Below are positions 1-12,371 of a stretch of 12,495 nucleotides of DNA, in pieces (the stretch's first letter is position 1; every line of letters begins with the position of its first letter). Source of the DNA: Bacteroidales bacterium (GTDB taxonomy: Bacteria; Bacteroidota; Bacteroidia; Bacteroidales; Dysgonomonadaceae); the NCBI GenBank assembly GCA_012841425.1, contig DUUR01000277.1:1-12495 (forward strand), given 5' to 3'. The notes under the pieces are model-generated. The model was not told where the DNA came from, did no database searches, and was given only the letters and a program-made list of their open reading frames with translations. The position numbers and the translations under genes are program-made.

Positions 1-56
1 ATATAATATCCCTATATAACTAAAAACTGTTTATCTAACACTTGTATATATCTTTT

Positions 57-413
57 TTAGGTCAATAAAAATACCATCTGCGTACTTTTGCCTAAAATCA
101 ATACCCATATATGATAACTTTCTCGATCAAGACCAGGGAACAACTTACCACCATGAACTTCTAAATATTCCATTTGAGACTTATTACAATCCTTCTCTAT
201 CTTCCTTCTTGTAATTGGGTCTATATAGTGCAAGAAATCGTCATATATCTCAGTTATAGGTGTACCCATATAGCCTTCTATATCTTTTTTGCTAAACTTT
301 TTAACCACTTCATCATATTCATCTAATACTTTGTTCCAAGCAATTAATAAGCCATCAGTTGAATCCCACAAAGTACCATCTAAATCAAAAATTACACTAT
401 CTAGTTTATTCAT
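57..413 (-). pseudogene. HAD-family phosphatase, truncated
   Basis: The N-terminus carries HAD motif I, FDLDGTLWD at residues 9-17. Asp10 would be the nucleophile and Asp12 the acid/base. A helical cap-like region follows, up to about residue 97 (GGKLFPGLD). After that the frame ends in about 20 residues that do not resemble the family, and the stop comes at 118 residues. Relatives are usually about 200-220 residues, so motif II (Ser/Thr), the motif III Lys and the acidic motif IV are all missing. In another frame, about positions 31-120 encode a family-unlike tail that includes MGIDFRQKYADGIFIDL, so the break looks like a deletion joined to foreign sequence rather than one frameshift. The start has a GAGAGG site six bases upstream. 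It lies 51 bases downstream of ptsI on the same strand, so the two are probably co-transcribed. A catalytically active product is unlikely. Confidence 0.75.
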
Positions 414-464
414 ATATTATGCCTCTCTTTTCATGTCTACTTCTATATTTATAAGTTACAATTA

Positions 465-2084
465 TTATTTTGCATATCTTATACTCTTACGCACTGGCAA
501 AACATTTGCAGGTGAAACAGATAATTCATCTATTCCTATGTCAAGGAAGGTTGCTGTAAGACTTGTATCTGCTGCTAATTCACCGCAAATTCCTACTCTT
601 ATACCTTCCTTATGAGCATTGTCTGCAACTAGTTTGATAAGTCTTAAAATCGCTTCATGATGAGGATTATAGAAATCATCAATTTTGTCATTTTGCCTAT
701 CAATGGCTAAGGTATATTGGCTTAAGTCATTAGTTCCAATACTAAAGAAATCAACCTCTTTAGCAAGTAAATCACTAATAAGTACAGCAGCAGGTGTTTC
801 TATCATAATACCTTGCTCTACATCTTTATATAATTTGCCTTCATTGTCAAGCTCTTTTTTAACTTCCCCCACTATCTTTTTAATCTTTGAAACTTCATCT
901 AGGGAAATAATCATTGGATACATTATTGATATATTTCCATAAGAACTAGCCCTTAAAATAGCTCTAAGCTGAGTCTTGAATATATCAGGTCTAGTTAAAG
1001 AAATCCTAATCCCACGATAGCCTAAGGCAGGATTCTTTTCCTTGTCCATATCAAAATATTCAAGCTGCTTATCGGCACCTATATCTAAAGTCCTGATGAT
1101 TACCTTTTTACCAGCCATAGTCTCGGCTAACTTCTTATAAATGGTAAATTGCTCTTCTTCACTCGGATAATCATCTCTCTCTAAGTATACACATTCACTT
1201 CTAAATAAACCAATACCATTTGCATCATTTTTAATAACTTCTGACAAATCAATAAGGCTTCCAATATTGGCTAATACATCTATCATTTTACCCGACAAAC
1301 TAATATTATCCTTTCCTTTCAGCTCTTCTAGTAACTTCTCTTCTTCTAATTCCTTTATTTTCTTTTCCTTATACATAATTAATGTGCTTTCATCTGGATT
1401 AATTATTAAAATGCCTGAAGAACCATCAACTATGGCAGACTTTCCATTCCAGTCTTCTTCAATATCAATTCCTGATATTGCTGGAATCCCCATAGTTCTG
1501 GCTATAATTGATGTATGAGAATGTTCAAAACCATATTGTGTGACAAGAGCTAGAAGTTTACTTTTATCTATATGTAGGACTTCACTAGGAGTTAAACTAA
1601 CGGAAAGCAAAATAATAGGCTCATCAAGAATAAGGGTCTTATTACTTACACCAGTAAGTATCCTAATAAGCCTTTGAGATATATCCCTAAAATCATCAGC
1701 CTTAGCCCTAAAGGACTCCGCTTTCATATTATTGAAAAACCTAGAGTAATAATCACAAGTAAGCTTAACAGCATAGGAGCTGTTTACTTTTTGTGTTTTA
1801 ATAATATTAATAATAAAATCATTAAATTCTACGTCTTCTAATAACTTAATGTGAGATTTAAAAACTTCTGCATCCTTCTGCCCCACCTTGATTATTGCGT
1901 CTTCATAAATATCTCTGAGCTGGCTAATTGCGGTATCACGAGCAGCCTTATATCTTGCAATCTCTCTATCTATATCTTTATCTTCTATTTTACTTCTGCT
2001 AATAATATTGTTTTCCTTAGAATGAAAATAAATCTTGCCAATAGCAATACCTTTGGATATACTTTTTCCCATATGTTTTTGCAT
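465..2084 (-). CDS. ptsI: PTS Enzyme I (phosphoenolpyruvate-protein phosphotransferase)
   Basis: This is the cytoplasmic first enzyme of the sugar phosphotransferase system. It takes phosphate from phosphoenolpyruvate onto a histidine and passes it to HPr. The N-terminal swivelling and HPr-binding part covers residues 1-145. The phosphohistidine motif is HSHTSIIARTMGIPAISG, with His190 as the active residue (family consensus GGxTSHTAI). The PEP-binding TIM barrel has Arg295 (LFRSE), Arg331 (RTLDIGADK), the signature IGTNDLSQYTLAIDR at 449-463 and Cys500 in GICGE. All key residues are present. At 539 residues it is slightly shorter than the usual ~570. The chosen start has AAAGGG eight bases upstream; Met5 is a weaker alternative. 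No ptsH or sugar-specific permease gene is visible nearby, so those partners must lie elsewhere. The only companion is the broken HAD gene downstream. Its apparent promoter lies within a gene relic (see 2121-2193). Confidence 0.95.
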   Translation of the reverse strand: MQKHMGKSISKGIAIGKIYFHSKENNIISRSKIEDKDIDREIARYKAARDTAISQLRDIYEDAIIKVGQKDAEVFKSHIKLLEDVEFNDFIINIIKTQKVNSSYAVKLTCDYYSRFFNNMKAESFRAKADDFRDISQRLIRILTGVSNKTLILDEPIILLSVSLTPSEVLHIDKSKLLALVTQYGFEHSHTSIIARTMGIPAISGIDIEEDWNGKSAIVDGSSGILIINPDESTLIMYKEKKIKELEEEKLLEELKGKDNISLSGKMIDVLANIGSLIDLSEVIKNDANGIGLFRSECVYLERDDYPSEEEQFTIYKKLAETMAGKKVIIRTLDIGADKQLEYFDMDKEKNPALGYRGIRISLTRPDIFKTQLRAILRASSYGNISIMYPMIISLDEVSKIKKIVGEVKKELDNEGKLYKDVEQGIMIETPAAVLISDLLAKEVDFFSIGTNDLSQYTLAIDRQNDKIDDFYNPHHEAILRLIKLVADNAHKEGIRVGICGELAADTSLTATFLDIGIDELSVSPANVLPVRKSIRYAK

Positions 2085-2120
2085 TATATCATCCCTTTAT
2101 ATAATTAATAACAATTTGTA

Positions 2121-2193
2121 TTTATCATAGCATGTTTTATTGTAAAAACAACTATCATACTTAAGGTTGGTAAAATCATATCCATGACTTGCA
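2121..2193 (-). pseudogene. Relic of a YARHG lipoprotein gene
   Basis: These 73 bases align without gaps to 5383-5455, inside the 472-residue lipoprotein gene, with 66 identities. On the minus strand they read ASHGYDFTNLKYDSCFYNKT then CYDK, against ARHGYDFNNPKYASYFYNKT then WYDK in the intact gene. The YARHG arginine and the conserved tryptophan are both replaced, as expected for neutral decay. The relic has no start and no lipoprotein signal. It is closest to the second repeat unit of the larger lipoprotein. It abuts, over nine shared bases, a dehydrogenase relic on the other strand. Confidence 0.85.
2124..2151 (-). promoter_or_regulatory. Probable ptsI promoter (extended -10)
   Basis: On the minus strand TTGTTT (2146-2151) and TATGAT (2124-2129) are separated by 16 bases. 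A TGC directly before TATGAT gives an extended -10. Transcription would begin near 2117, about 30 bases before the ATG. The whole promoter sits inside the decayed YARHG fragment. The matching bases in the intact lipoprotein gene are TTATTT and TGGTATGAT, so two changes bring it closer to a sigma-A site. Found by eye; no transcript data. Confidence 0.5.
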
Positions 2194-2239
2194 AGCCTTA
2201 ATAACAAATCTAAATCTTCCTACAGTTATTAAAATCGCC
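2185..2239 (+). pseudogene. Relic of the 5' end of a sugar dehydrogenase gene
   Basis: These 55 bases align without gaps to 8504-8558, near the start of the dehydrogenase fragment gene, with 47 identities. On the plus strand they encode LITNLNLPTVIKIAK, against LITILNLPTVIKTAY in the intact copy. A stop (TGA) follows almost at once. The match overlaps the neighbouring YARHG relic at 2185-2193 (TGACTTGCA), a string that resembles both donor sequences (TGCCTTGCA at 5447, TGACTTACA at 8504). That makes it the likely deletion junction. Confidence 0.8.
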
Positions 2240-2244
2240 AAATG

Positions 2245-2305
2245 ATAAAAGACTGCTATACTCTGAATTTTCCTTGAAACATATCAGTATATAACAGTCT
2301 TTTAT
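2245..2305 (-). terminator. Long hairpin, possible endolysin terminator
   Basis: ATAAAAGACTG (2245-2255) and CAGTCTTTTAT (2295-2305) are perfectly complementary 11-base arms. The 39-base interior can pair further (TATAC with GTATA, then TGA with TCA). On the minus strand it ends in CTTTTAT, 56 bases beyond the endolysin stop. The run of T is short and the loop is long for a classical intrinsic terminator, so a decayed mobile-element end or a transcript-stabilising hairpin is also possible. Confidence 0.5.
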
Positions 2306-2360
2306 AATTATTTTATCTATGTTATCTATTGTTGTGTATAGTAACTAATATACTAGTATC

Positions 2361-4787
2361 TTATTTAACAATTCTCGAAAATGTATCATTTCCTGCTATA
2401 CCATCTGTTGTCAATCCATTACTTATTTGAAATGCTTTAACTCCTTGTTCTGTCGAAACTCCAAAAATTTTATCTACTCCAGCAGATAGGGAAATATTAT
2501 GAGCATGAAGACCTATCTGTAGGCAAGCAACAACTAGATTGTTATTTCCTTTCTTTTGATTGTTAGCAGAAATAGCAGTAGATGTAGCAGGACCATATAC
2601 CCCATCTATGGTAAGTTTTGTTCTATAAGTACTATTTAAAGATGATTGAATAGCTTTAATTAATGCAGTTTTGCTGGCTGGTCCCCAATCTCCATCAGCA
2701 GTTATTCCTGATTTAAACAAGTTATTTAGTGCTGACTGGGCCACTTTAATATTAGAACTCAAACCACTAGATGTATAGGAACTTACATAATCTTTGTGCA
2801 TATAGCCAATACCGAGACCAGTTACATTTATACGGATCCATTCTCCTACTTTTGTACCATCAACTTTAAAACTTGCTCCTTTGTTTAATGAACCTATTAT
2901 CTCACCAGCTGGTGTTTTTCTAACATAAACTCCTTGCCCTGTAGAATATGCTGTTGAATTCCATGAACTGCTATTACTAGGTGAACTTGTTCCGCCAGTC
3001 AAAGCTTCAAAGGTTGCTTTTCCTGCTATACCATCTACTGAAAGCTTATTCCTTGATTGATAAGTTTTTAATCCACTTTCTGTGGACGGTCCGAAGAAAT
3101 GATCAATTCCACCATTTAGAGAAATATTGTTTGCATACAAGCCAATTTGTAGCACAGCTACTACTAAGTTATTGTCACCACATTTTTGGTTATGAATAGA
3201 TATTGCATTAGCTGTATTGTTACCCCATATACCATCTACAATTAAACTTGTACCATATACTTTGTTTAAAGATTTTTGTAATGCTCGGGTGTATGCAAGC
3301 TTGCTCGCAGGTCCCCATATTCCATCAACCTCAATACCTGCATCAAATGTGTTATTTAATGTCCTCTGTGCCAGCTTCACACCATCACTTCCAACACCTG
3401 TACCACTATAAGAAACATAATCCTGATGCATCCAGCCAATCCCTATTCCACTAACTTTGATTTTTACCCATTGTCCACTTTTACTACCGTCTACTTCGAA
3501 TGTATTTCCTTTATTTAAAGATCCAAGTATCCTACCACCAGGAGTGGCTCTTACTCGTACACCATTGCCTGTACATGTACCAGTCCCAGTTCGTTCCCAT
3601 CCAGAGTCATTTTCACTAGAACCACCTTCATTGAACCCTCCGTTGACATCTGTAACCATGCTGTAATCAGGGCGAACGAATCTGGTACTGCTTCCAATAG
3701 TACGTGTTTTTCTAAAAACACCTTCACCCTCGCTTACTATACCAGAACTATCGGAAGTATTTCCTTCTATTGTTATGATTTTCGAACTACTAGGTACACT
3801 TTCAACTAAACCCGTATGGTAAAACCTAGTGCCATTGTAGTAAAGAACAATATCTCCCCTTTTAGGTTCTTTATATAAAGAGTGTAGTTTTCCCAACCTA
3901 TCACAGTTTATGAATGGATAATGTTTTAACATCTTTTCTGTAGTTTTTTGTCCAAAGGCATTCATCATACACCAAGTTACAAAACAAGCACACCATGGCT
4001 GCGTATGTTGACCTGGATCAATATCTCTCCAGTATTTTGTATAATTTCCACTTCCAGCATTTGCGGTTTTACTATCAAGGTTTGCTTTGCTTTTCTTTTC
4101 AAGGTAACCAACTTCATTCGATGCAATTTCTAATAATTTGTTTATAGCATCTTCTGAAGTAATTTTATCCGTGTTTGGTAAGTACTTTTTAAGGCTATCA
4201 TATACCATCTTTTGACGAGTTGCATAAGTTCCAACTTGATTTCCAGTGTCTGATTTAGAAGCTTTATAAATATTATCAAGAGTATAGGGCGTCTTTGATT
4301 TGGCAAGTACTCTTCTAGTTGCACCATAGCCTCCCTGATGGGCAAAATTTGCACACATCATTTTTGCATCCATATCTGTAATTCCCATTTTTGCTACTTC
4401 ATTTATATATACCTGAATATCCTCTACAACTAATTCATCTTGGCAAGCTCGTCCTTGTGCCGAGTCAATAATGTTAATGATACATTTTCCTTTCGCGGAA
4501 CTCTTTTTAACTTGGTACTTGTCCCAGGATTTATTATCTAAATCATAAGCAATTCCTTCTGTGTCAAGGGATTTAAAGCTTGCTTGATCTTTCTCTCGGA
4601 TTCGTTTCAGCAATTTCTGTGCATTAACACCCATCCATTGTGCCGCTCCAATCGTTATGGCATGCTCTATTGAAGAATTCGTATATGCTTCCACAAAAGC
4701 ACGATAGTTCTTGTTGCCATATACATTACCACCAGTTTCCACTGCGTATATAATATTACGCATTATAACTTTTTCATTTTTATTCAT
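2361..4787 (-). CDS. Phage-type endolysin: lysozyme-like + CHAP + two (SH3b + PG-binding) blocks
   Basis: This 808-residue modular peptidoglycan hydrolase has no signal peptide or membrane anchor, as in holin-dependent endolysins. Residues 1-205 form a helical lysozyme-like domain of a kind seen in clostridial phage proteins, with VETGG giving a candidate catalytic Glu17 and ITIGAAQW following; the assignment is tentative. Residues 215-375 are a CHAP amidase/peptidase with candidate Cys266 (QPWCACF), His324 (FYHTGL) and Glu341/Asn343 (IEGNT). Then come SH3b (~397-460), peptidoglycan-binding modules (~468-598, with DGIWG motifs), a second SH3b (~609-672) and a second peptidoglycan-binding block (~680-808). 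The two 200-residue halves are clearly similar and arose by tandem duplication. An AAGGAG site lies eight bases before the start. The holin gene is 89 bases upstream on the same strand, giving a lysis cassette without other phage genes in view. The role would be cell lysis or holin-dependent release of proteins. Confidence 0.88.
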   Translation of the reverse strand: MNKNEKVIMRNIIYAVETGGNVYGNKNYRAFVEAYTNSSIEHAITIGAAQWMGVNAQKLLKRIREKDQASFKSLDTEGIAYDLDNKSWDKYQVKKSSAKGKCIINIIDSAQGRACQDELVVEDIQVYINEVAKMGITDMDAKMMCANFAHQGGYGATRRVLAKSKTPYTLDNIYKASKSDTGNQVGTYATRQKMVYDSLKKYLPNTDKITSEDAINKLLEIASNEVGYLEKKSKANLDSKTANAGSGNYTKYWRDIDPGQHTQPWCACFVTWCMMNAFGQKTTEKMLKHYPFINCDRLGKLHSLYKEPKRGDIVLYYNGTRFYHTGLVESVPSSSKIITIEGNTSDSSGIVSEGEGVFRKTRTIGSSTRFVRPDYSMVTDVNGGFNEGGSSENDSGWERTGTGTCTGNGVRVRATPGGRILGSLNKGNTFEVDGSKSGQWVKIKVSGIGIGWMHQDYVSYSGTGVGSDGVKLAQRTLNNTFDAGIEVDGIWGPASKLAYTRALQKSLNKVYGTSLIVDGIWGNNTANAISIHNQKCGDNNLVVAVLQIGLYANNISLNGGIDHFFGPSTESGLKTYQSRNKLSVDGIAGKATFEALTGGTSSPSNSSSWNSTAYSTGQGVYVRKTPAGEIIGSLNKGASFKVDGTKVGEWIRINVTGLGIGYMHKDYVSSYTSSGLSSNIKVAQSALNNLFKSGITADGDWGPASKTALIKAIQSSLNSTYRTKLTIDGVYGPATSTAISANNQKKGNNNLVVACLQIGLHAHNISLSAGVDKIFGVSTEQGVKAFQISNGLTTDGIAGNDTFSRIVK

Positions 4788-4809
4788 ATGATTTGCTCCT
4801 TTTCTTTTT

Positions 4810-4827
4810 TTGAATTTGCAAATTCAA
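4810..4827. promoter_or_regulatory. 18-bp perfect palindrome between holin and endolysin
   Basis: TTGAATTTGCAAATTCAA is a perfect palindrome without a loop in the 89-base gap between the holin stop and the endolysin start. Lacking a loop, it is more like a DNA-binding site than an RNA hairpin. No promoter elements were recognised next to it. The regulator, if any, is unknown. Confidence 0.35.
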
Positions 4828-4876
4828 TAAAGTAAGTAGTAAGCATATCTTCATATGGAAACAAAAAGTTTAATTT

Positions 4877-5140
4877 TTATTTTTCATCATTATTTTTAAT
4901 ACTTTGTTTAACTTCGTAAAAACCAGTGCTAGATAATCCAGATATCATTCCACTAAGGACAACTTCTGAAGAACATGAACTTGATATAGTAATATTAATG
5001 ACTATTCCTACTAGCATTAATGTTAATGGAATGTATCGATTTGGAAATTCTGGAAAGGCTTCTTTCAAGCTATATCCAATACATAAACACATACCCGCAG
5101 TAATAAAGTTAAGATAATCATATAAAATATTAGTATCCAT
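4877..5140 (-). CDS. Small holin-like membrane protein
   Basis: The 87-residue protein has an N-terminal hydrophobic helix (~10-27), a strong second one (~36-54, IPLTLMLVGIVINITI), a weaker glycine/serine-rich third one (~59-76) and a charged tail (KQSIKNNDEK). Size, helix pattern and charged C-terminus fit small phage holins of the Hol44 / holin superfamily V kind. The family call rests on pattern and context, not on an alignment. It directly precedes the endolysin gene, so it would form the membrane lesion that lets the signal-less endolysin reach the wall. A GGGGGTGG stretch four bases before the ATG serves as ribosome binding site. A promoter-like sequence precedes the gene, suggesting that it starts its own two-gene transcript. 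Confidence 0.75.
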   Translation of the reverse strand: MDTNILYDYLNFITAGMCLCIGYSLKEAFPEFPNRYIPLTLMLVGIVINITISSSCSSEVVLSGMISGLSSTGFYEVKQSIKNNDEK

Positions 5141-5179
5141 TATTCCACCCCCTTCCTAAGTAAGGTAATTACAAGATAA

Positions 5180-5208
5180 ATAGTATTCTTAAATAAAAAA
5201 AGAAACAA
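5180..5208 (-). promoter_or_regulatory. Probable sigma-A promoter of holin-endolysin genes
   Basis: On the minus strand TTGTTT (5203-5208) and TACTAT (5180-5185) are separated by exactly 17 bases. The initiation point would be near 5173, about 33 bases before the holin start. The -35 element lies in the T-tail of the terminator that ends the lipoprotein transcript, so the lysis genes appear uncoupled from the lipoprotein genes except by read-through. Confidence 0.5.
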
Positions 5209-5211
5209 AAA

Positions 5212-5238
5212 ACTCTGGAAATCATTTTCTTCCAGAGT
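5212..5238 (-). terminator. Intrinsic terminator after the lipoprotein genes
   Basis: ACTCTGGAA (5212-5220) and TTCCAGAGT (5230-5238) form a perfect 9-bp stem with a 9-base loop. A-runs on one side and T-runs on the other make it work in either direction. It lies 42 bases past the stop of the second lipoprotein gene and directly upstream of the holin promoter. Confidence 0.85.
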
Positions 5239-5280
5239 TTTTTTAAAGCATAACCGTAATTTTTTCGGCTTATTATATTT

Positions 5281-6699
5281 TTAATCTTGTTTATTTTCAA
5301 TCTTTTTAATCAATTCTATGTTTTTAATTTCAAAATCATTTAGATAAGTACTTGGTTTGTCGGGAAATTCTGGCGATTTATGTTTATCATACCATGTTTT
5401 ATTGTAGAAATAACTAGCATACTTAGGGTTGTTAAAATCATATCCATGCCTTGCATATATTTCATTACGTGCGAATCCGAGACTATCCCGTGACAATTCA
5501 GCAATTTCTTGCTCATTTAAATATCGACTATCACTGTCGGGAAAGATGAAGGCAGAGTCAATTTTAGCACCAGTGTAAGATTCCAAACGTCCTAGTTTAG
5601 AATCTAGTTCTACACTATAATCTGCATCTGGATTTTTTTCAGTAATTTTTGTTTTAAGTATAACATAATCTCTCTCAAACTTTAGTGTACCAGTTCCTTT
5701 ATTATTATAATTATCCGTAAAATCAAATTCTACAACATCCCCTTGTAATGTACCTACACAAGCTTCAGCAGTGGCGCTTTTACCATCTGTGCGATAAGGA
5801 CCTCCTGCTAAGATTTCAAAATTGATTTTATTATCTGTTGCTGCTCCAAATGTAATAGAACATGGATCACCAAAGCAAAACTCATAAATAAAATATTCAT
5901 AATAGCAAAGAGTTATATCCTGAGAATTTTCTCCAACCACATCGTTTGATTCAATCTTTTTAATCAATTCTATGTTTTTAATTTCAAAATCGTTTAAATA
6001 TTCGTTTGGATCATTATTTGGCCCTATAAGAAAACCATGATAATCATACCATGTCTTTTTATGAAAATAACTAGCATACTTTGGGGTGTTGAAAATGTAA
6101 CCATGTCTTGCAAAGATTTCATTTCGAGCAAATCCTAAATCTTCTTTGGATAAAGCGAGGAGTTCTTCTTCTTTTATATATCGTCTATCACTATCGTCAA
6201 AAATAAAAGAAGAGTCTACTTCAACATCACCGTAAGATTCTACACGAACCAACCTTGATTCTGCCTCTAAACTATAATCTGCATCTGGATTTGCTTCCTC
6301 TATAATTGTTTTTAATATAATGGCATCTCCATCAAAGCTTAATGTGCCAGTACCTGCATTATTATAATTATCTACAAAATCAAATTCAACAACTTCTCCA
6401 CATAAAGTACCTACACAATTCTCAGCCGTTGGAACTTCACCATCAATTAGGTAGGGTTCTCCAACATGAATTTTAAAATTAATTTGGTCTTCTGTTGCTG
6501 AAGTAAATAAAATGGAACATGTATCTCCTGATGAAAATTCAAAGATAAAATGCTCATAATATGAAAGTTTAATATCATTTGATTCATCAGTATCTATTGT
6601 TTCTATAATCTTAGAATTATTACTTCCTTTTAACTCACTTTCTTCACATCCTGTCAAAATGAGCATAATGGTCAAGATTAAAATACTTTTCTTTATCAT
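5281..6699 (-). CDS. Lipoprotein with two YARHG repeat units
   Basis: This is a surface lipoprotein of 472 residues. The signal peptide MIKKSILILTIMLILTGC ends in a lipobox (LTGC), so Cys18 would be lipidated and the protein anchored outside the membrane. Two repeats follow (~44-250 and ~261-469). Each has a beta-rich part (SYYEHFI..., NYNN[A/K]GTGTL...) and a YARHG domain, with ARNEIFARHGYIF in the first and ARNEIYARHGYDF in the second, each followed by PKYASYF and KTWYD. YARHG is a bacterial extracellular domain of unknown function, thought to act at the cell wall. The start is set by AGGAGG six bases upstream; an upstream ATG eight codons earlier has no comparable site and would spoil the signal peptide. 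It follows the paralogous lipoprotein gene by 43 bases in one operon. Unlike that paralog it lacks the long acidic linker after the lipid anchor. Confidence 0.85.
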   Translation of the reverse strand: MIKKSILILTIMLILTGCEESELKGSNNSKIIETIDTDESNDIKLSYYEHFIFEFSSGDTCSILFTSATEDQINFKIHVGEPYLIDGEVPTAENCVGTLCGEVVEFDFVDNYNNAGTGTLSFDGDAIILKTIIEEANPDADYSLEAESRLVRVESYGDVEVDSSFIFDDSDRRYIKEEELLALSKEDLGFARNEIFARHGYIFNTPKYASYFHKKTWYDYHGFLIGPNNDPNEYLNDFEIKNIELIKKIESNDVVGENSQDITLCYYEYFIYEFCFGDPCSITFGAATDNKINFEILAGGPYRTDGKSATAEACVGTLQGDVVEFDFTDNYNNKGTGTLKFERDYVILKTKITEKNPDADYSVELDSKLGRLESYTGAKIDSAFIFPDSDSRYLNEQEIAELSRDSLGFARNEIYARHGYDFNNPKYASYFYNKTWYDKHKSPEFPDKPSTYLNDFEIKNIELIKKIENKQD

Positions 6700-7381
6700 A
6701 TACTTCCTCCTGTTTTTGAACAAAATATTATATTATATTATTTTAATCTTGTTTATTTTCAATCTTTTTAATCAATTCTATGTTTTTAATTTCGAAGTCG
6801 TTTAAATAATCTTCAGGTTTATCACTAGCATCTATTATGAGAGCATGACGATCGTACCATGTTTTTTTATGAAAGTAACTTGCATATTTGGGATTGTTAA
6901 AAAAATACCCGTATCTTGCAAAGATTTCATTACGTGCATATCCTAAATCTTCCTTTGACAGTCCAGTAAGTTCTTCTTCTTTTAAATATCGACTATTACT
7001 GTCAGGAAAAACATATGAAGAGTCTGTTTTAATATCGCCATAAGTTTCTTCACGAAATAACTTAGATTCTGCTTCTAGACTATAATCTGTGGCTGGACTC
7101 TCTTCATGGATCATTGTTTTTAATAGAATATCATCTTTATCAAATTTTAGTGTTCCAGAACCCTTGTTATTATAATTGTCTACAAAATCAAATTCAAGCA
7201 CATCGCCCCGCAATGTACCTATACAATTATCAGCAATTATAACTTGGCTGGAAACATTAGATTCATACTTAGTAATTAGAATCTTGAAATTAATTTGATT
7301 TTCTGTTACTGAACCAAATGTGATTGTAGATACATCTCCATCAAAAGATGTATAGATAAAATGCTCATAATATGAAAGTTT
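5293..7381 (-). repeat. Three copies of a ~205-codon YARHG unit
   Basis: Units lie at about 6755-7381, 5950-6570 and 5293-5919, all on the minus strand. Each encodes the beta-rich segment, a YARHG domain and the closing string YLNDFEIKNIELIKKIE. The start regions and leaders of the two genes are also copied: both leaders contain a similar AT-rich stretch and GGAGGAAGT before the ATG. One gene duplication plus one internal duplication explains the layout. A decayed fourth piece lies at 2121-2193. Confidence 0.85.
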
Positions 7382-7648
7382 AATATCATTTGATTCATCA
7401 GTATCTTTCAAATTGTCTATTTCTTCTTTTTTATCAACTTGTTCAGGACTATCTGGTTTTTCTGTTTCATTTATTTCTTCTGTTTCATTTGAGTCTTCTA
7501 TATCATCTAGAATTAAATCTTCTTCAGATGAAGAATCATTATCTATTGTTTCTACAATCTTAGAATTATTACTTCCTTTTAACTCACTTTCTTCACATCC
7601 TGTCAAAATGAGCATAATAGTCAAGATTATAATACTTTTCTTTATCAT
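6743..7648 (-). CDS. Lipoprotein with acidic linker and one YARHG unit
   Basis: This 301-residue paralog of the next gene has a nearly identical signal peptide and lipobox (MIKKSIIILTIMLILTGC, lipidated Cys18). Residues 36-85 form a Glu/Asp/Ser-rich linker, likely a flexible spacer through the wall. One copy of the ~205-residue unit follows (~90-298). Its YARHG motif is altered to ARNEIFARYGYFF, with Tyr in place of the name-giving His, while PKYASYF and KTWYD are kept. A GGAGG site lies seven bases before the ATG. It is the first gene of the two-gene lipoprotein operon and is preceded by a good sigma-A promoter and a 10-bp dyad. The divergent sigma-like gene begins 199 bases away. Substrate or partner is unknown. 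Confidence 0.85.
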   Translation of the reverse strand: MIKKSIIILTIMLILTGCEESELKGSNNSKIVETIDNDSSSEEDLILDDIEDSNETEEINETEKPDSPEQVDKKEEIDNLKDTDESNDIKLSYYEHFIYTSFDGDVSTITFGSVTENQINFKILITKYESNVSSQVIIADNCIGTLRGDVLEFDFVDNYNNKGSGTLKFDKDDILLKTMIHEESPATDYSLEAESKLFREETYGDIKTDSSYVFPDSNSRYLKEEELTGLSKEDLGYARNEIFARYGYFFNNPKYASYFHKKTWYDRHALIIDASDKPEDYLNDFEIKNIELIKKIENKQD

Positions 7649-7679
7649 TTACTTCCTCCCGTTTTTTGTACAATATATT

Positions 7680-7711
7680 ACATTGTTTTACTTATAATAT
7701 CAAAACAATGT
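7680..7711. promoter_or_regulatory. 10-bp dyad at the lipoprotein promoter
   Basis: ACATTGTTTT (7680-7689) and AAAACAATGT (7702-7711) are a perfect inverted repeat with a 12-base spacer. The dyad runs from the -10 element across the predicted start of the lipoprotein transcript, the usual place for a repressor operator. It could also fold as a hairpin in the 5' leader. No matching second site was found in the window. Confidence 0.5.
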
Positions 7712-7736
7712 TATACCTTTGTCAGAAGAATGTCAA
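7708..7736 (-). promoter_or_regulatory. Sigma-A promoter of the lipoprotein operon
   Basis: On the minus strand a perfect TTGACA (7731-7736) is followed after 17 bases by TAACAT (7708-7713); TATAAC at 15 bases is an alternative -10. Transcription would start near 7701, about 50 bases before the ATG. Confidence 0.6.
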
Positions 7737-7765
7737 CAATTTATCATATTTATGGATTTTTTATG

Positions 7766-7774
7766 TGATATTAT
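7766..7774 (+). promoter_or_regulatory. Possible extended -10 promoter of the sigma-like gene
   Basis: TGATATTAT on the plus strand is an extended -10 without a clear -35, about 74 bases before the start of the sigma-like gene. A second candidate is TTTACA at 7794-7799 with CTACTT 16 bases on (7816-7821). TTTACA is the -35 known for TcdR/BotR/UviA-class sigma factors, but CTACTT fits the TcdR -10 (CTCTTT) at only four of six bases. Confidence 0.3.
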
Positions 7775-7847
7775 GAATTTTAAATGTTTTTTGTTTACAT
7801 TTTTAGAAGTTTTTACTACTTGTCTTTCTGAAGGGAGAGATAAGTAT

Positions 7848-8381
7848 ATGGATAAATTGATGAATTTACTTAAAAATTATAAAGATAATAAAAGCGAAGA
7901 ATCATTAAGTGCAATTATTGAGCAAATGAGTCCTCTAGTAAAGAAATATGCCCGCTTGACTCACTGTATGGAATATGACGATGCAATACAAGAATTATAT
8001 GTTACCTTAATTGAAACACTAGAATACATTGACCCAGCACGTGGAAGGTACGAATGCCTGAGTTATATGAAATATGCCATTCAAAATAAGTATAGAAGAT
8101 TATGTAGTAAAAATATAGCTAAAAATAATACAATAGCCTTATCTGAAAATTTACATTTCAAAGAAGAATGCGTAAACAATTTGGAATTCTATCTTGACTT
8201 ACAAAAATATATTGATGATTTATATTTAACTAGTCCAAGGAAAAGTAATATACTTTACTTATCAGCAATTAAAAACATGTCTGACAAAGAAGTTGCTGCA
8301 AAATTAAAAATATCAAAACAATATGTTAATAGAATAAAAAAACAGTATATATCAGTTTTTCTACATAATTATAAAAGTTAA
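7848..8381 (+). CDS. Small sigma-70-like factor (TcdR/UviA/BotR-like)
   Basis: The 177-residue protein has the two-domain shape of small clostridial sigma factors. An N-terminal region-2-like part contains LVKKYARLTHCMEYDDAIQELYVTL (~29-53, given here in two readable pieces: LVKKYARLTHCMEYDD and AIQELYVTL). A C-terminal region-4-like helix-turn-helix carries MSDKEVAAKLKISKQYVNRI (~144-163). It would bind RNA polymerase core and direct it to specific promoters. Size and pattern fit group-5 sigma factors such as TcdR, UviA and BotR; the related regulators of conjugative transposons are an alternative. The ATG at 7848 is chosen because GAAGGGAGAG precedes it; a TTG 43 codons upstream would add a hydrophobic stretch alien to the family. 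It is divergent from the lipoprotein operon and in the same block as the lysis genes. Confidence 0.75.
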   Translation: MDKLMNLLKNYKDNKSEESLSAIIEQMSPLVKKYARLTHCMEYDDAIQELYVTLIETLEYIDPARGRYECLSYMKYAIQNKYRRLCSKNIAKNNTIALSENLHFKEECVNNLEFYLDLQKYIDDLYLTSPRKSNILYLSAIKNMSDKEVAAKLKISKQYVNRIKKQYISVFLHNYKS

Positions 8382-8425
8382 AGAAATCCATTCTTAATAT
8401 ACATACAATTTATGTGTTTAGTGTG

Positions 8426-8450
8426 ATATGCAATCATATTATTTGCATAT
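8426..8450. promoter_or_regulatory. 8-bp dyad upstream of the dehydrogenase fragment
   Basis: ATATGCAA (8426-8433) and TTGCATAT (8443-8450) are perfect inverted arms with a 9-base spacer. It lies 45 bases past the sigma-like gene and 37 bases before the dehydrogenase ATG. There is no T-run, so an operator is more likely than a terminator. Confidence 0.35.
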
Positions 8451-8486
8451 AATTAATAAATGAAGTCATTATGAAAAGGTATTAAT

Positions 8487-8783
8487 ATGAGAAACATTAG
8501 CGTTGACTTACACCCCTTAATAACTATTCTAAACCTTCCTACAGTTATTAAGACCGCCTATCTTCCTGGGGATACTGATGAGAGATTGTTTATTGCAACT
8601 CAAGTAGGTGAAATATATTATCTTGGAAATGGAACTGTTGAACCTTTTTTGAATATCACAGATCAAGTTATTGAACTAGGAAAAGAAAGTGGCGGTTATG
8701 ATGAGCGTGGACTTCTAGGCCTAGCCTTTCATCCAAACTTCCATAATAACGGACTATTTTACATACATTACTCACATAAATGA
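8487..8783 (+). pseudogene. PQQ-dependent sugar dehydrogenase-like protein, N-terminal fragment
   Basis: The 98-residue frame matches the start of the soluble glucose/sorbosone dehydrogenase (HHIP-like beta-propeller) family. The first blade reads LPGDTDERLFIATQVGEIYYL, shown here as LPGDTDERLFIATQ and VGEIYYL, and the hallmark GLLGLAFHPNFHNNGLFYIHYS (8723-8775 approximately) follows, shown as GLLGLAFHPNF and NGLFYIHYS. Full-length members exceed 300 residues, so about two thirds are missing. No signal peptide is seen, although many relatives are exported. AAAAGG lies seven bases before the ATG. The frame breaks at HYS, where the sequence changes into an IS30 transposase in a different reading frame. 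A TGA then ends it at once. No continuation was found on the far side of the element, so this is not a simple insertion. A relic of the same gene's start lies at 2185-2239. Confidence 0.75.
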
Positions 8784-9810
8784 AAGAAAAAACAAACATT
8801 TAAATGAGAAAGAAAGATATCAAATTGAAGGATATCTTAAAGACGAGAAAAAGGCCTGGCAAATAGCCGAACTACTTGGAAGAAGCGAGAGAACCATTCA
8901 GCGTGAAATAAAGAGAGGTACAGTAACACTGCTTGATTCACATTTGAGGGAATATGAGCTGTATTGTGCAGATACTGCACAGCGTAAATATTACGAAAAG
9001 GCTGCAAATAAAGGAAGAAATTACAAAATCGGAAATGATCATGAATTTGTTGAACATATTGAACGAATGATTATAGATGAAAAGTATTCACCAGATGCCG
9101 TTATTGGAAGATTAAAACTAGAAGGCAGTCCTTTTAAAACCTCTATCTGTACAAAAACATTATATAATTATATCGATGCAGGGCTGTTTTTGCGTTTATC
9201 CAATAAGGATCTTCCAGTGAAGAAAAAAGGGAAGAAACGTACTTATAGAAAGACAAGAGTAGCATTAAAGAATCTGAAAGGAACTAGCATAGAAGAACGT
9301 CCAAAAGAAATTGAAAGCAGGAGTGAATATGGTCACTGGGAAATGGATTGTGTGGTTGGAGGACAGAAAAAGGGCAAATCAGTATTACTTGTTCTGAGTG
9401 AGAGAAAAAGTCGTGAAGAGATTATATTTAAAATGACTGGAAAAACTCAGGAATGTGTTAAAAAGGCGATAGACAGCCTAGAAATGAAATTAGGCTATAT
9501 CAAGTTTACTGAAACATTTAAAACGATAACAGTGGATAATGGAAGTGAGTTTCTTGACTTTAAGGGAATTGAAACATCAATTAAGAGAAAAGTAAAAACA
9601 AGAACCAAAGTGTTCTATGCCCATCCATTCAGCTCTTGGGAACGTGGTACAAATGAGAATACGAACAAACTAATAAGACGCTTTATACCAAAGGGAAGTA
9701 GTATAGATGATATTTCCTTATCCATGATAAAATATATAGAAAATTGGATAAATAATTATCCTAGAAGAATATTTGGATACCGAACAGCAAATGAAGTAAA
9801 AGTAGCGTAA
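8767..9810 (+). CDS. IS30-family transposase, 5' end lost
   Basis: The product catalyses copy or cut-and-paste of an IS30 element. From about 8779 the frame reads NERKNKHLNEKERYQIEGYL, followed by a helix-turn-helix (AWQIAELLGRSERTIQREIKR) that would bind the element's ends, split here as AWQIAELLGRS and ERTIQREIKR. The DDE catalytic core is complete: Asp in GHWEMDCVVGG (codon at 9346), Asp in ITVDNGSEF (9535) and Glu in SSWERGTNENTN (9640), with 34 residues between the last two, as in IS30. The C-terminus WINNYPRRIFGYRTANEV is typical. The frame is open back to 8725 but has no ATG, GTG or TTG before a TTG at 8944, which lies after the helix-turn-helix. Homologs I recall start about where ATT stands at 8767. 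Expression is therefore doubtful. Confidence 0.85.
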   Translation: MTHINERKNKHLNEKERYQIEGYLKDEKKAWQIAELLGRSERTIQREIKRGTVTLLDSHLREYELYCADTAQRKYYEKAANKGRNYKIGNDHEFVEHIERMIIDEKYSPDAVIGRLKLEGSPFKTSICTKTLYNYIDAGLFLRLSNKDLPVKKKGKKRTYRKTRVALKNLKGTSIEERPKEIESRSEYGHWEMDCVVGGQKKGKSVLLVLSERKSREEIIFKMTGKTQECVKKAIDSLEMKLGYIKFTETFKTITVDNGSEFLDFKGIETSIKRKVKTRTKVFYAHPFSSWERGTNENTNKLIRRFIPKGSSIDDISLSMIKYIENWINNYPRRIFGYRTANEVKVA

Positions 9811-10172: not shown

Positions 10173-10901
10173 TCATACTTTCATCTTCTTGCGGAATACG
10201 TAAACTGCTCCAATACTAATAACAACGCCATAGCCAAGCACCCACCACGCATGTGGCAGCATATCTGCATATTGACCGTTCATCCCTGCTCTCCCCATTT
10301 CTACCGCATGGAAAAATGGAAGTGCATAAGCAATCTTTTCAAACATTCCGCCGACTAACTCCACGCTGAACCATGCTCCTGAAAACAACGCGGTCACATT
10401 CGTCAGTAAAGCACCACAAATACCGCCGACTGCCTTTTCACTAAAAAGGCTACCGAGTAAAAGTCCAGAACTAATAAAAACGAGTCCGATTGGCAAGATA
10501 AAAATAATTGTTAGAATGATAGAAAAACTGAATCTCATGCCTAAAAACATAGCTGAAACAAAACAAAGGATTGTTTGTAAGAGTGCCATTGGAACGAGCG
10601 GTAGTGTATATCCTAGTATGAAATCCTTTGCCTTCATTGGCGTTGTAAAGAGCCTCGTTAAAAATTCACTCGTCCGATCTTTGGCAACGATTTGCCCAGC
10701 GAATAAAGCCATGAAGGACAAGCCAAATACAGCAACTCCTGGTGTTAGCATGTCGATGTTAAAAATATCCACCGGTACATTTCTATTAATTAACGTTAAT
10801 AAAACAAGTAAGACAATCGGGAACACTAAACCGAAGAACAAAGAAATTGGATCTCGTATGATTTCTTTTAATGTACGATAACTAAACATCAATGTTTTCA
10901 T
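10173..10901 (-). CDS. ABC-2 type transporter permease
   Basis: The 242-residue integral membrane protein has six predicted hydrophobic helices, near residues 20-41, 52-73, 94-121, 127-150, 160-178 and 218-236. The cytoplasmic stretch AKDRTSEFLTRLFTTPMKAK between helices 2 and 3 is typical of the ABC-2 family, in which the ATPase contacts the permease. The family exports drugs, lipids or polysaccharides; the substrate here cannot be told. It would work as a dimer with the ATPase encoded just upstream. GGAGG lies nine bases before the ATG, and the start overlaps the end of the ATPase gene by 20 bases, a sign of coupled translation. Length is complete for the family. The base composition is visibly richer in G+C than the ptsI and lipoprotein genes. 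Confidence 0.88.
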   Translation of the reverse strand: MKTLMFSYRTLKEIIRDPISLFFGLVFPIVLLVLLTLINRNVPVDIFNIDMLTPGVAVFGLSFMALFAGQIVAKDRTSEFLTRLFTTPMKAKDFILGYTLPLVPMALLQTILCFVSAMFLGMRFSFSIILTIIFILPIGLVFISSGLLLGSLFSEKAVGGICGALLTNVTALFSGAWFSVELVGGMFEKIAYALPFFHAVEMGRAGMNGQYADMLPHAWWVLGYGVVISIGAVYVFRKKMKV

Positions 10902-11628
10902 CGTTTATTACCTCCTTAACCGAATTAATAAAGGCATCTTCAAGTGAAGAAGTCTGTGTTTGAGCCATTAATTCATCTACTGTTCCTAATGCACTTACCT
11001 TCCCTTTTTGCAAAATACATATTCGATCCGACAAGTTCTCAGCTTCTTCTAAATAATGTGTTGTTAATATGATAGTAACTTTATTTTTTAAGTCCTTTAT
11101 AACTTGCCAAAGTTCTCGTCTTGCAAGGACATCAAGACCTATAGTCGGTTCATCAAGAAATAATATATCTGGTTCACTGACTAAAGCCATGGCAATACTC
11201 AATCGACGCTGCCAACCACCTGATAATTCCTTACTTCTTTTTTTACTATAAGGTTCTAAGGAAAAGATATCCATCATTTCGTTCACTTTTCCCTTTCTTT
11301 CTTTTTTAGTAAAACCATTAAGACCTGCCAAAAGTTCTAGATTTTCGTAAACAGTTAAATTAAAAGCAATTGCTGTTTCTTGAGGAGATACGGCAATGAC
11401 TTTTTTTACCTTGCCAGTCTCTTTTATGAGATTATATCCTAAAATAAGCCCTTCACCACTCGTAGGCTTGACTAGACCGCAGAGCATTTTAATCAGCGTC
11501 GATTTTCCAGCACCATTCATACCTAGTACTGTATATACTTCTCCTTTATTTACTATAATGGAAACTTCATCAACGGCTTTTATTTCACCATATGCCTTTG
11601 TAATATTCCGCGTCTCTATCGCAATCAT
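10882..11628 (-). CDS. ABC transporter ATP-binding protein
   Basis: This 248-residue ATPase drives the adjacent ABC-2 permease. Walker A is GMNGAGKS (36-43), the Q-loop Gln is at 83 (SPQET), the signature is LSGGW (135-139), Walker B is ILFLDEP with catalytic Glu160, and the switch His is at 191 (TTHYLEEAE). All are intact; Trp instead of Gln in the signature is a common variant. The order and sequence resemble DrrA/CcmA-like exporters, but the short C-terminus lacks an extra regulatory domain. GGAGG lies seven bases upstream of the ATG, and that ribosome binding site is read as the Glu-rich tail of the preceding regulator. The start overlaps the regulator's stop by four bases (ATGA). The substrate is unknown. 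Confidence 0.92.
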   Translation of the reverse strand: MIAIETRNITKAYGEIKAVDEVSIIVNKGEVYTVLGMNGAGKSTLIKMLCGLVKPTSGEGLILGYNLIKETGKVKKVIAVSPQETAIAFNLTVYENLELLAGLNGFTKKERKGKVNEMMDIFSLEPYSKKRSKELSGGWQRRLSIAMALVSEPDILFLDEPTIGLDVLARRELWQVIKDLKNKVTIILTTHYLEEAENLSDRICILQKGKVSALGTVDELMAQTQTSSLEDAFINSVKEVINDENIDV

Positions 11629-12056
11629 TCCTCTTCCTCCTTATTCACAAGAACATTAGGAGGGAAAAATCCTTGCATATAGCTTTGAGGAATGATTGCC
11701 AATCCCCGCTCCTCATCACCAACAATAATTATAGTATCGCCCGCTTCAATATGAAAAAGTTCACGTGCTTTTTTTGGAATAACAATTTGTCCTCTTTCTC
11801 CCACTGTTGCAGCCCCAAATACGTGTTTACCTTTCGGAGGAACTCCCAGACCTGCTTCTTCTTCATTATAGTTCACCAAATCATCTAAGGTAACATCATA
11901 CAATTCCGCTAGCTTCACGCAGAGACTTATATCTGGCGTAGAATCTCCCCTCTCCCACTTTGCAATAACTTGGCGGGAAACATCCAATTTTTCCGCCAGC
12001 ATTTCTTGTGTATATTGATGTTGATTTCTAAGTCGTTTTAAATTCATATATATCAT
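11625..12056 (-). CDS. XRE helix-turn-helix / AbrB-fold fusion regulator
   Basis: The 143-residue protein has an XRE helix-turn-helix (~5-60: NLKRLRNQHQYTQEMLAEKL then DVSRQVIAKWERG). A SpoVT/AbrB swapped-hairpin domain follows (~84-122: VGERGQIVIPKKARELFHIE then AGDTIIIV). Two different DNA-binding folds in one chain suggest binding at the operon's own promoter, with the AbrB part also giving dimerisation. The ATG at 12056 is preferred, since AGGAGG stands ten bases upstream; a GTG at 12065 is only one base from that site. The C-terminal EEEE is encoded by the ribosome binding site of the ATPase gene. It is the first gene of the regulator-ATPase-permease operon, so autoregulation and control of export by a drug or stress signal are likely, though inferred. 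Confidence 0.88.
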   Translation of the reverse strand: MIYMNLKRLRNQHQYTQEMLAEKLDVSRQVIAKWERGDSTPDISLCVKLAELYDVTLDDLVNYNEEEAGLGVPPKGKHVFGAATVGERGQIVIPKKARELFHIEAGDTIIIVGDEERGLAIIPQSYMQGFFPPNVLVNKEEEE

Positions 12057-12371
12057 ATTTTTCACACCTCCTCTTCAAGGATAACAGATGAATCCATCTT
12101 ATTCTATATATAAAACATAACATCCATGTGATGATTTGTATAACCCAACATTTTCATATAATGAATAATTTAGCGAGATAAGGTAATGTTTTTACTTTTT
12201 AATTTCTTTCTTGATTGTGACCGATTAAAATTCGAACAACATTAAATTTAGGTCTTTGTGACCCGCTACTTCAAAACTTTAATATAAATGAGAAACTGAC
12301 TTTTTTCCCCTATATTTTGTTATTAAGATTAAAATGCAATATAAGGCACTCTGCTATTGAGCCCTTACTGA
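12057..12371. other. Upstream region of the regulator operon
   Basis: About 300 bases without a gene. On the minus strand AGGAGG stands before the regulator. An AT-rich stretch at about 12100-12122 (TATGTTTTATATATAG) could hold a -10, but no convincing -35 is seen. ACATCCATGT (12119-12128) is a near-palindrome and could be an operator. Nothing else was recognised. Confidence 0.45.
12342..12367 (-). terminator. Weak hairpin after the right-edge reading frame
   Basis: TAAGG (12342-12346) with CCTTA (12363-12367), and CTC (12349-12351) with GAG (12359-12361), form an imperfect stem around TGCTATT. It lies just past the stop of the right-edge frame and is followed on the minus strand by ATATTGCATTTT. 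It is a weak candidate terminator. Confidence 0.3.

Follow-up and report, generated by a model that had tools for sequence, protein, structure and literature searches.

A composite remnant of a YARHG lipoprotein gene and a sugar dehydrogenase gene in front of ptsI, best read as a duplicate that collapsed

Partial duplication with an internal deletion at short direct repeats is a familiar outcome of illegitimate recombination and of replication slippage. Deletions of this kind likewise leave truncated copies that keep the order of their donors, are joined over about nine bases and drift as pseudogenes. The short remnant described here, which lies in front of a ptsI gene and which we call the scar, shows nothing distinctive when compared with them, and its full duplicate is one that we infer from two surviving pieces.

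Both genes that supplied these pieces belong to described families. The glucose/sorbosone (PQQ-type) dehydrogenases of Bacillota (PF07995) are the closest relatives of one of them: a fragment on the right of the locus resembles residues 1-96 of these enzymes, and the scar corresponds to codons 7-24. Unlike the enzymes of the family, both copies at this locus are fragments, the longer one measuring 98 aa and standing beside an IS30 transposase gene. The other piece is a fragment of the domain that defines the YARHG domain proteins (PF13308; PMC3355149). It differs from those proteins in being without the R of the YARHG motif and without the conserved Y and W, and in comprising only 26 codons.

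The window, by which we mean the whole stretch of 12,495 nucleotides that was analysed, is the entire contig C196 of a metagenome-assembled genome (MAG; G000) with 73.8% completeness and 337 contigs. The features on which the argument depends are as follows.

465..2084, minus strand: ptsI, encoding PTS enzyme I (PF02896, PF05524, PF00391; TIGR01417, 566 bits)
2113..2193, minus strand: remnant of a YARHG domain, 26 codons, open frame (71 of 81 bases identical to 5375-5455)
2124..2132, minus strand: candidate extended -10 element TGCTATGAT for ptsI, inside the scar (motif scan)
2185..2193, no strand given: junction word TGACTTGCA, common to both pieces (alignments)
2185..2239, plus strand: remnant of codons 7-24 of a GSDH-type dehydrogenase gene (47 of 55 bases identical to 8504-8558)
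2241..2309, no strand given: long stable hairpin between the lysin gene and the scar (predicted from folding alone)
5281..6699, minus strand: gene for a YARHG lipoprotein with two YARHG units, the last of which is the parent of the scar (PF13308, two stretches)
8487..8783, plus strand: 5' part of a GSDH-type sugar dehydrogenase gene, truncated beside an IS30 transposase gene (PF07995)

The two matches and their junction

The scar occupies 2113-2239, a total of 127 bases, and is a composite of pieces from two neighbouring genes. An earlier note on this DNA had reported that 2121-2193 agrees with 5383-5455 at 66 of 73 bases and 2185-2239 with 8504-8558 at 47 of 55, both in the order and orientation of the donors; a recount gave exactly these figures, and the alignments retain the order and orientation. 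The left match, on the other hand, begins at about 2113 and not at 2121, with a sharp end of similarity at that point. Overall, the scar is 12-15% diverged from both donors.

That these matches exceed what shuffled sequence yields, on which the earlier note had made its interpretation depend, is borne out by 500 dinucleotide-preserving shuffles per piece, scored by the best ungapped alignment against 5281-8784. The observed score was 59 for 2121-2193 (shuffle maximum, 19), 39 for 2185-2239 (maximum, 18) and 34 for 2194-2239, the portion outside the overlap (maximum, 17). Chance similarity was rejected, since for each of the three pieces none of the 500 shuffles approached the observed value. 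When 2085-2360 was compared by blastn with the whole 1.7-Mb assembly, the query itself ranked first and the two donors ranked second and third (5376-5455, E 2.3e-23, 89%; 8504-8558, E 1.9e-11, 85%), and a repeat finder returned the same pairs. Comparison of the flanks with 4877-8784 detected no additional donor remnant, either in 2240-2360, where 42 of 300 shuffles were equally good, or in 2085-2112, where 62 of 300 were. A weak repeat between 2278-2315 and 8336-8373 (71% of 38 bases) was taken as chance.

The two pieces meet at the nine-base word TGACTTGCA, in which the earlier note had seen a resemblance to both donors. Our alignments agree: the word is one mismatch away from each donor word (TGCCTTGCA and TGACTTACA), and a single microhomology join connects the YARHG piece to the dehydrogenase piece.

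Decay of the YARHG piece and history of the dehydrogenase piece

The parent of the left piece is the last of the three YARHG units of the window and lies on the same strand. The first and second units, considered as sources, were rejected on account of their lower agreement (54 of 73 and 50 of 73 bases, compared with 66 of 73). Over the 81 bases, the scar and the parent unit differ at ten sites, eight of them changed only in the scar and two only in the parent unit; at one of the eight scar-only sites, the YARHG units differ among themselves. Translated, the scar would read ASHGYDFTNLKYDSCFYNKTCYDKYK, as compared with ARHGYDFNNPKYASYFYNKTWYDKHK in the parent unit. An R of the YARHG motif has become S, a W has become C and a Y has become C, at positions where R is found in 163 of 163 selected YARHG segments, W in 158 and Y in 117, shares that are biased upwards, that of R the most, because the motif used to pick the segments demanded R or K and a filter for likeness to the parent unit followed (163 segments in which 9 or more of 26 residues resemble that unit, among 254 picked by motif from 119 of the best 120 homologues listed). 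Given that the changes unique to the scar remove the domain-conserved R, Y and W, the YARHG piece is dead, having lost its coding constraint.

By codon position, the ratio of third to other changes is 4:6 in the scar and 25:18 in the pooled comparison between live YARHG units, so that the surplus of changes at first and second positions does not reach significance (p 0.48). The ORFs that overlap the scar are 21-36 aa long, and none of them looks gene-like by eye; a search of the whole window gave no Rfam match at the gathering score. The segment 2090-2236 folds slightly better than its shuffles (z -1.55, with 15 of 200 shuffles equal).

The dehydrogenase fragment on the right consists of 98 codons only, ending next to the IS30 transposase gene. 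Its score against PF07995 is 22.7 bits, under the cut-off of 25, and it matches residues 1-96 of relatives at 60-66% in 5 of 391 genomes, in which those relatives are open frames of 471-484 aa. The assembly, which is incomplete, has no PF07995 match at E 1e-10 elsewhere, and the region 8487-9810 contains no convincing terminal inverted repeat that would mark the ends of the IS30 element. The eight differences between the scar and the right-hand copy were polarized with five outgroup genes, which place four changes on the scar side, three on the right-hand side and leave one unassigned. Counted over the 55 bases of DNA, the right-hand copy is one base closer than the scar to four of the five outgroups, and the scar is two bases closer to the fifth. 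The right-hand copy has accumulated almost as many changes as the scar (three sites as compared with four), and the two are therefore sister copies, not a parent and its fresh daughter.

At the protein level, the right-hand copy is closer than the scar to most of the best 120 dehydrogenases listed, the matching residues out of 18 being 7 for the scar and 9 for the right-hand copy in 68 proteins, and 8 and 10 in 36. These figures rest on the best 120 of the 2740 proteins that passed a search with query A1, in which two full-length dehydrogenases were aligned with the window fragment. None of the best 120 of 2740 exceeds 66.7% identity to the window fragment, and thus no intact allele like that of the window is among them. 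The same 120 proteins (P0241-P0360) are full-length dehydrogenases of Clostridia and Bacilli that are 85-91% identical to the query. They may be unusually conserved or may have spread recently, and the window fragment, at up to 66.7%, is an outlier.

Neighbouring genes and provenance of the contig

The lipoprotein genes at 5281-6699 and 6743-7648 together contain three YARHG units (PF13308). Among the homologues listed, P0121 has its start at the codon that begins at 6699. P0122, which comes from a different contig of 4.4 kb, joins a head like 6743-7648 to a tail sharing 98% identity with the last unit of the window. P0122 and P0123, both from other contigs, combine parts of the YARHG genes found here, and the array looks variable. 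These reshuffled genes (P0121-P0123) point to an array that readily undergoes duplication and deletion, and two genes may have fused to give the double-unit gene at 5281-6699.

In a wider view, the segment 2361-8381 encodes a lysin (CHAP, SH3 and peptidoglycan-binding domains), a holin (PF16079), the YARHG lipoproteins and a divergent sigma factor. The sigma factor scores above the cut-off of a general sigma-70/ECF model; its score with the BotR model, 23 bits of 138, is below the cut-off. Judged by its gene content, the segment is perhaps a cassette for host lysis or release under its own sigma factor. Further to the right, 10173-12065 carries an ABC-2 type transporter pair and a gene recognized by helix-turn-helix repressor models as well as by AbrB models, with a G+C content of about 36%, as compared with about 32% in the left part of the contig.

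Genome searches with different parts of the locus, amounting to 1815 genome look-ups in samples with genomes counted repeatedly, found no other copy of the locus, and no genome sampled held a full second copy or an intermediate. In the MAG itself and 60 relatives, the DNA of the scar had no match at E 0.001 beyond the window itself, and the lipoprotein gave one distant YARHG domain outside the window in the same 61 genomes (G048, 43%). A search of 392 genomes from the same order as the Diplocloster genome G065 (Lachnospirales) gave no match to the lipoprotein at E 1e-20; in 398 genomes of the phylum of G065 the lipoprotein had two distant domains (39-40%), one with an internal stop, and in five genomes reached from ptsI it had three (33-42%). 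Searches around G628, whose ptsI was the best match, covered its family and order and gave no lysin in 6 genomes at E 1e-40 or in 7 at E 1e-60. In samples or capped scans, the collection viral_contigs yielded nothing for the lipoprotein, the lysin or the scar pattern, phages yielded nothing by DNA or by the lipoprotein, and plasmids yielded nothing by DNA and one distant YARHG domain (52%). A scan of genome_contigs with ptsI gave no other copy of the locus.

The surroundings of related genes in other genomes were compared as well. Twelve window proteins were searched by tblastn at E 1e-5 against the dehydrogenase loci of five genomes (12.9-19.9 kb each), where the only match besides the dehydrogenase was an ABC ATPase at 36% in two of them. 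Six ptsI loci, with 2.9 kb (L035) to at most 10 kb of sequence upstream, had besides ptsI an ABC ATPase at 22-31% (L035 and L036) and one XRE-type match at 38% (L039). No window homologue except ptsI was found at 30 ptsI loci with short flanks.

The origin of the contig bears on how these results are read. At E 1e-100, ptsI was found in 1 of 41 genomes, namely the MAG's own, and in 0 of its 40 relatives. A different contig of the MAG has ORFs that resemble Bacteroidota genes by eye, and the five named relatives of ptsI, 55-60% identical, stand in Lachnospiraceae and other Clostridiales records in a pattern-limited scan. On these three grounds, the contig probably belongs to a clostridial genome and was misbinned, and searches of its own genome therefore say little about the history of the locus. 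Tetranucleotide usage correlates at 0.51-0.70 among stretches of other contigs of the MAG, at 0.26-0.40 between these and window positions 1-8780, and at 0.22-0.31 between the window and three clostridial ptsI loci. Composition thus does not place the contig, as the window is no nearer to the clostridial loci than to the contigs of the MAG.

Origin and possible role of the scar

The reading that we consider best, with a probability of roughly 0.6, is that 2113-2239 is a dead composite remnant of a segment that was duplicated beside ptsI and then internally deleted. The duplicated stretch would have begun in the last YARHG unit and extended in the direction of the 5' end of the dehydrogenase gene, and the copy would have lost everything between the words TGxCTTGCA of the YARHG unit and TGACTTxCA of the dehydrogenase gene, by slippage or end-joining at the microhomology, as the junction suggests. 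The remnant has since drifted without coding constraint, which the lost residues show for its YARHG part. The divergence of the two pieces is alike (10 of 81 and 8 of 55 bases; Fisher p 0.80, at low power), which fits a single event while having little power to demonstrate it.

The earlier note had likewise proposed a collapsed duplicate, and much of that proposal stands: the non-functional relative, the order and orientation of the donors, the similar divergence and the microhomology all speak for it. The complete 3-kb copy with the sigma gene, and with it a loss of 3 kb, is not borne out. That the lost part measured about 3 kb and included the sigma gene is an assumption, given that the YARHG proteins on other contigs, near-identical as they are, differ in make-up.

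Because only two short pieces survive, separate insertions also have to be weighed. Two fragments might have been captured successively beside ptsI as filler, through repair or template switching, so that a full copy never existed. The small amount that remains, 81 and 55 bases each with sharp ends, and the lack of further donor sequence above shuffles on either side would suit such captures, but the order and orientation of the donors, the similar divergence and the single microhomology join are explained more simply by one deletion, and we regard successive capture as quite unlikely. An assembly artefact, that is, a chimeric join in a metagenome contig, is highly improbable. In its favour, the MAG is fragmented, ptsI was not found in the 40 relatives searched and the other contigs of the MAG differ somewhat in composition; a misjoin of identical reads, however, would not yield a scar diverged from both donors to the extent seen here, and the lysin protein belongs to a cluster for which 8 contigs are recorded, with lengths of up to 22.6 kb that exceed the present one.

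A further scenario, which we hold to be unlikely, is that an older YARHG/dehydrogenase scar was the site where the block of lysin, holin, YARHG and sigma factor genes entered in one piece. The dehydrogenase repeats of 55 bases would then be the borders of the block, produced by recombination at the 5' end of the dehydrogenase gene or by its duplication. These repeats (2185-2239 and 8504-8558) do directly flank 2240-8503, and in the five other genomes the dehydrogenase has no homologue of lysin, holin, YARHG, sigma factor or ptsI nearby (E 1e-5). The block is accordingly not a usual neighbour of the dehydrogenase, as judged from the 12.9-19.9 kb inspected in each. Against its entry as a unit, an earlier deletion would still be required to join the YARHG piece to codon 7, and Pfam identifies no integrase, transposase or other recombinase among the five main genes of 2240-8503, although such an enzyme could act from elsewhere. 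The related suggestion of the earlier note, that the flanking repeats could have deleted or moved the lysin-holin block, finds no support: the repeats are not identical over long distances, their longest exact runs being 16 and 17 bases, and the searches brought up no sequence without the block.

In the reading as a collapsed duplicate, which we continue to prefer, the scar is in all likelihood just what an earlier duplication would ordinarily leave behind. Any present role would be mainly that of an upstream region of ptsI. The start codon of ptsI is at 2084, and since only 28 bases separate it from the scar at 2113, a promoter directly before ptsI must overlap the scar. A motif resembling the extended -10 element, TGCTATGAT, is situated at 2124-2132, at a distance from ptsI that fits by eye. 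It descends from the TGG-TAT-GAT codons (W-Y-D) of the YARHG domain, and an element like it is also present in two live YARHG units. Such elements are not clearly enriched in the window, with 5 found and 2.64 expected, and 24 of 200 shuffles contain as many. Consensus sigma-70 scans detected no minus-strand site inside 2085-2240, the nearest being 2338-2310, beyond the hairpin. The consensus scans showed no excess over shuffles: over 1950-9000 they gave 37 promoter-like sites (38.5 in shuffles) and 4 terminator-like sites (2.2 in shuffles), and over 2050-2400 they gave 3 (3.4) and 0 (0.1), respectively. The hairpin at 2241-2309 is predicted at -24.9 kcal/mol, with z -6.7 on the minus strand and -5.6 on the plus strand; judged by its folding, it may act as a terminator, and it is missing from the terminator-like sites of the consensus scans.

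It is conceivable, if very doubtful, that the dead YARHG piece was retained because TGCTATGAT became the promoter of ptsI after the old upstream region had been lost. The odds of this proposal are lowered by the consensus scans, which score no minus-strand promoter in the scar. If it were true, one could trace here how coding sequence became regulatory DNA for ptsI, a gene central to sugar uptake; failing that, the scar would represent ordinary genome wear. As a collapsed duplicate, it would offer a small, clear case of a duplicated segment shrinking to a scar joined at a microhomology, and this at a locus where the lipoprotein genes, to judge from other contigs, seem to have been reshuffled.
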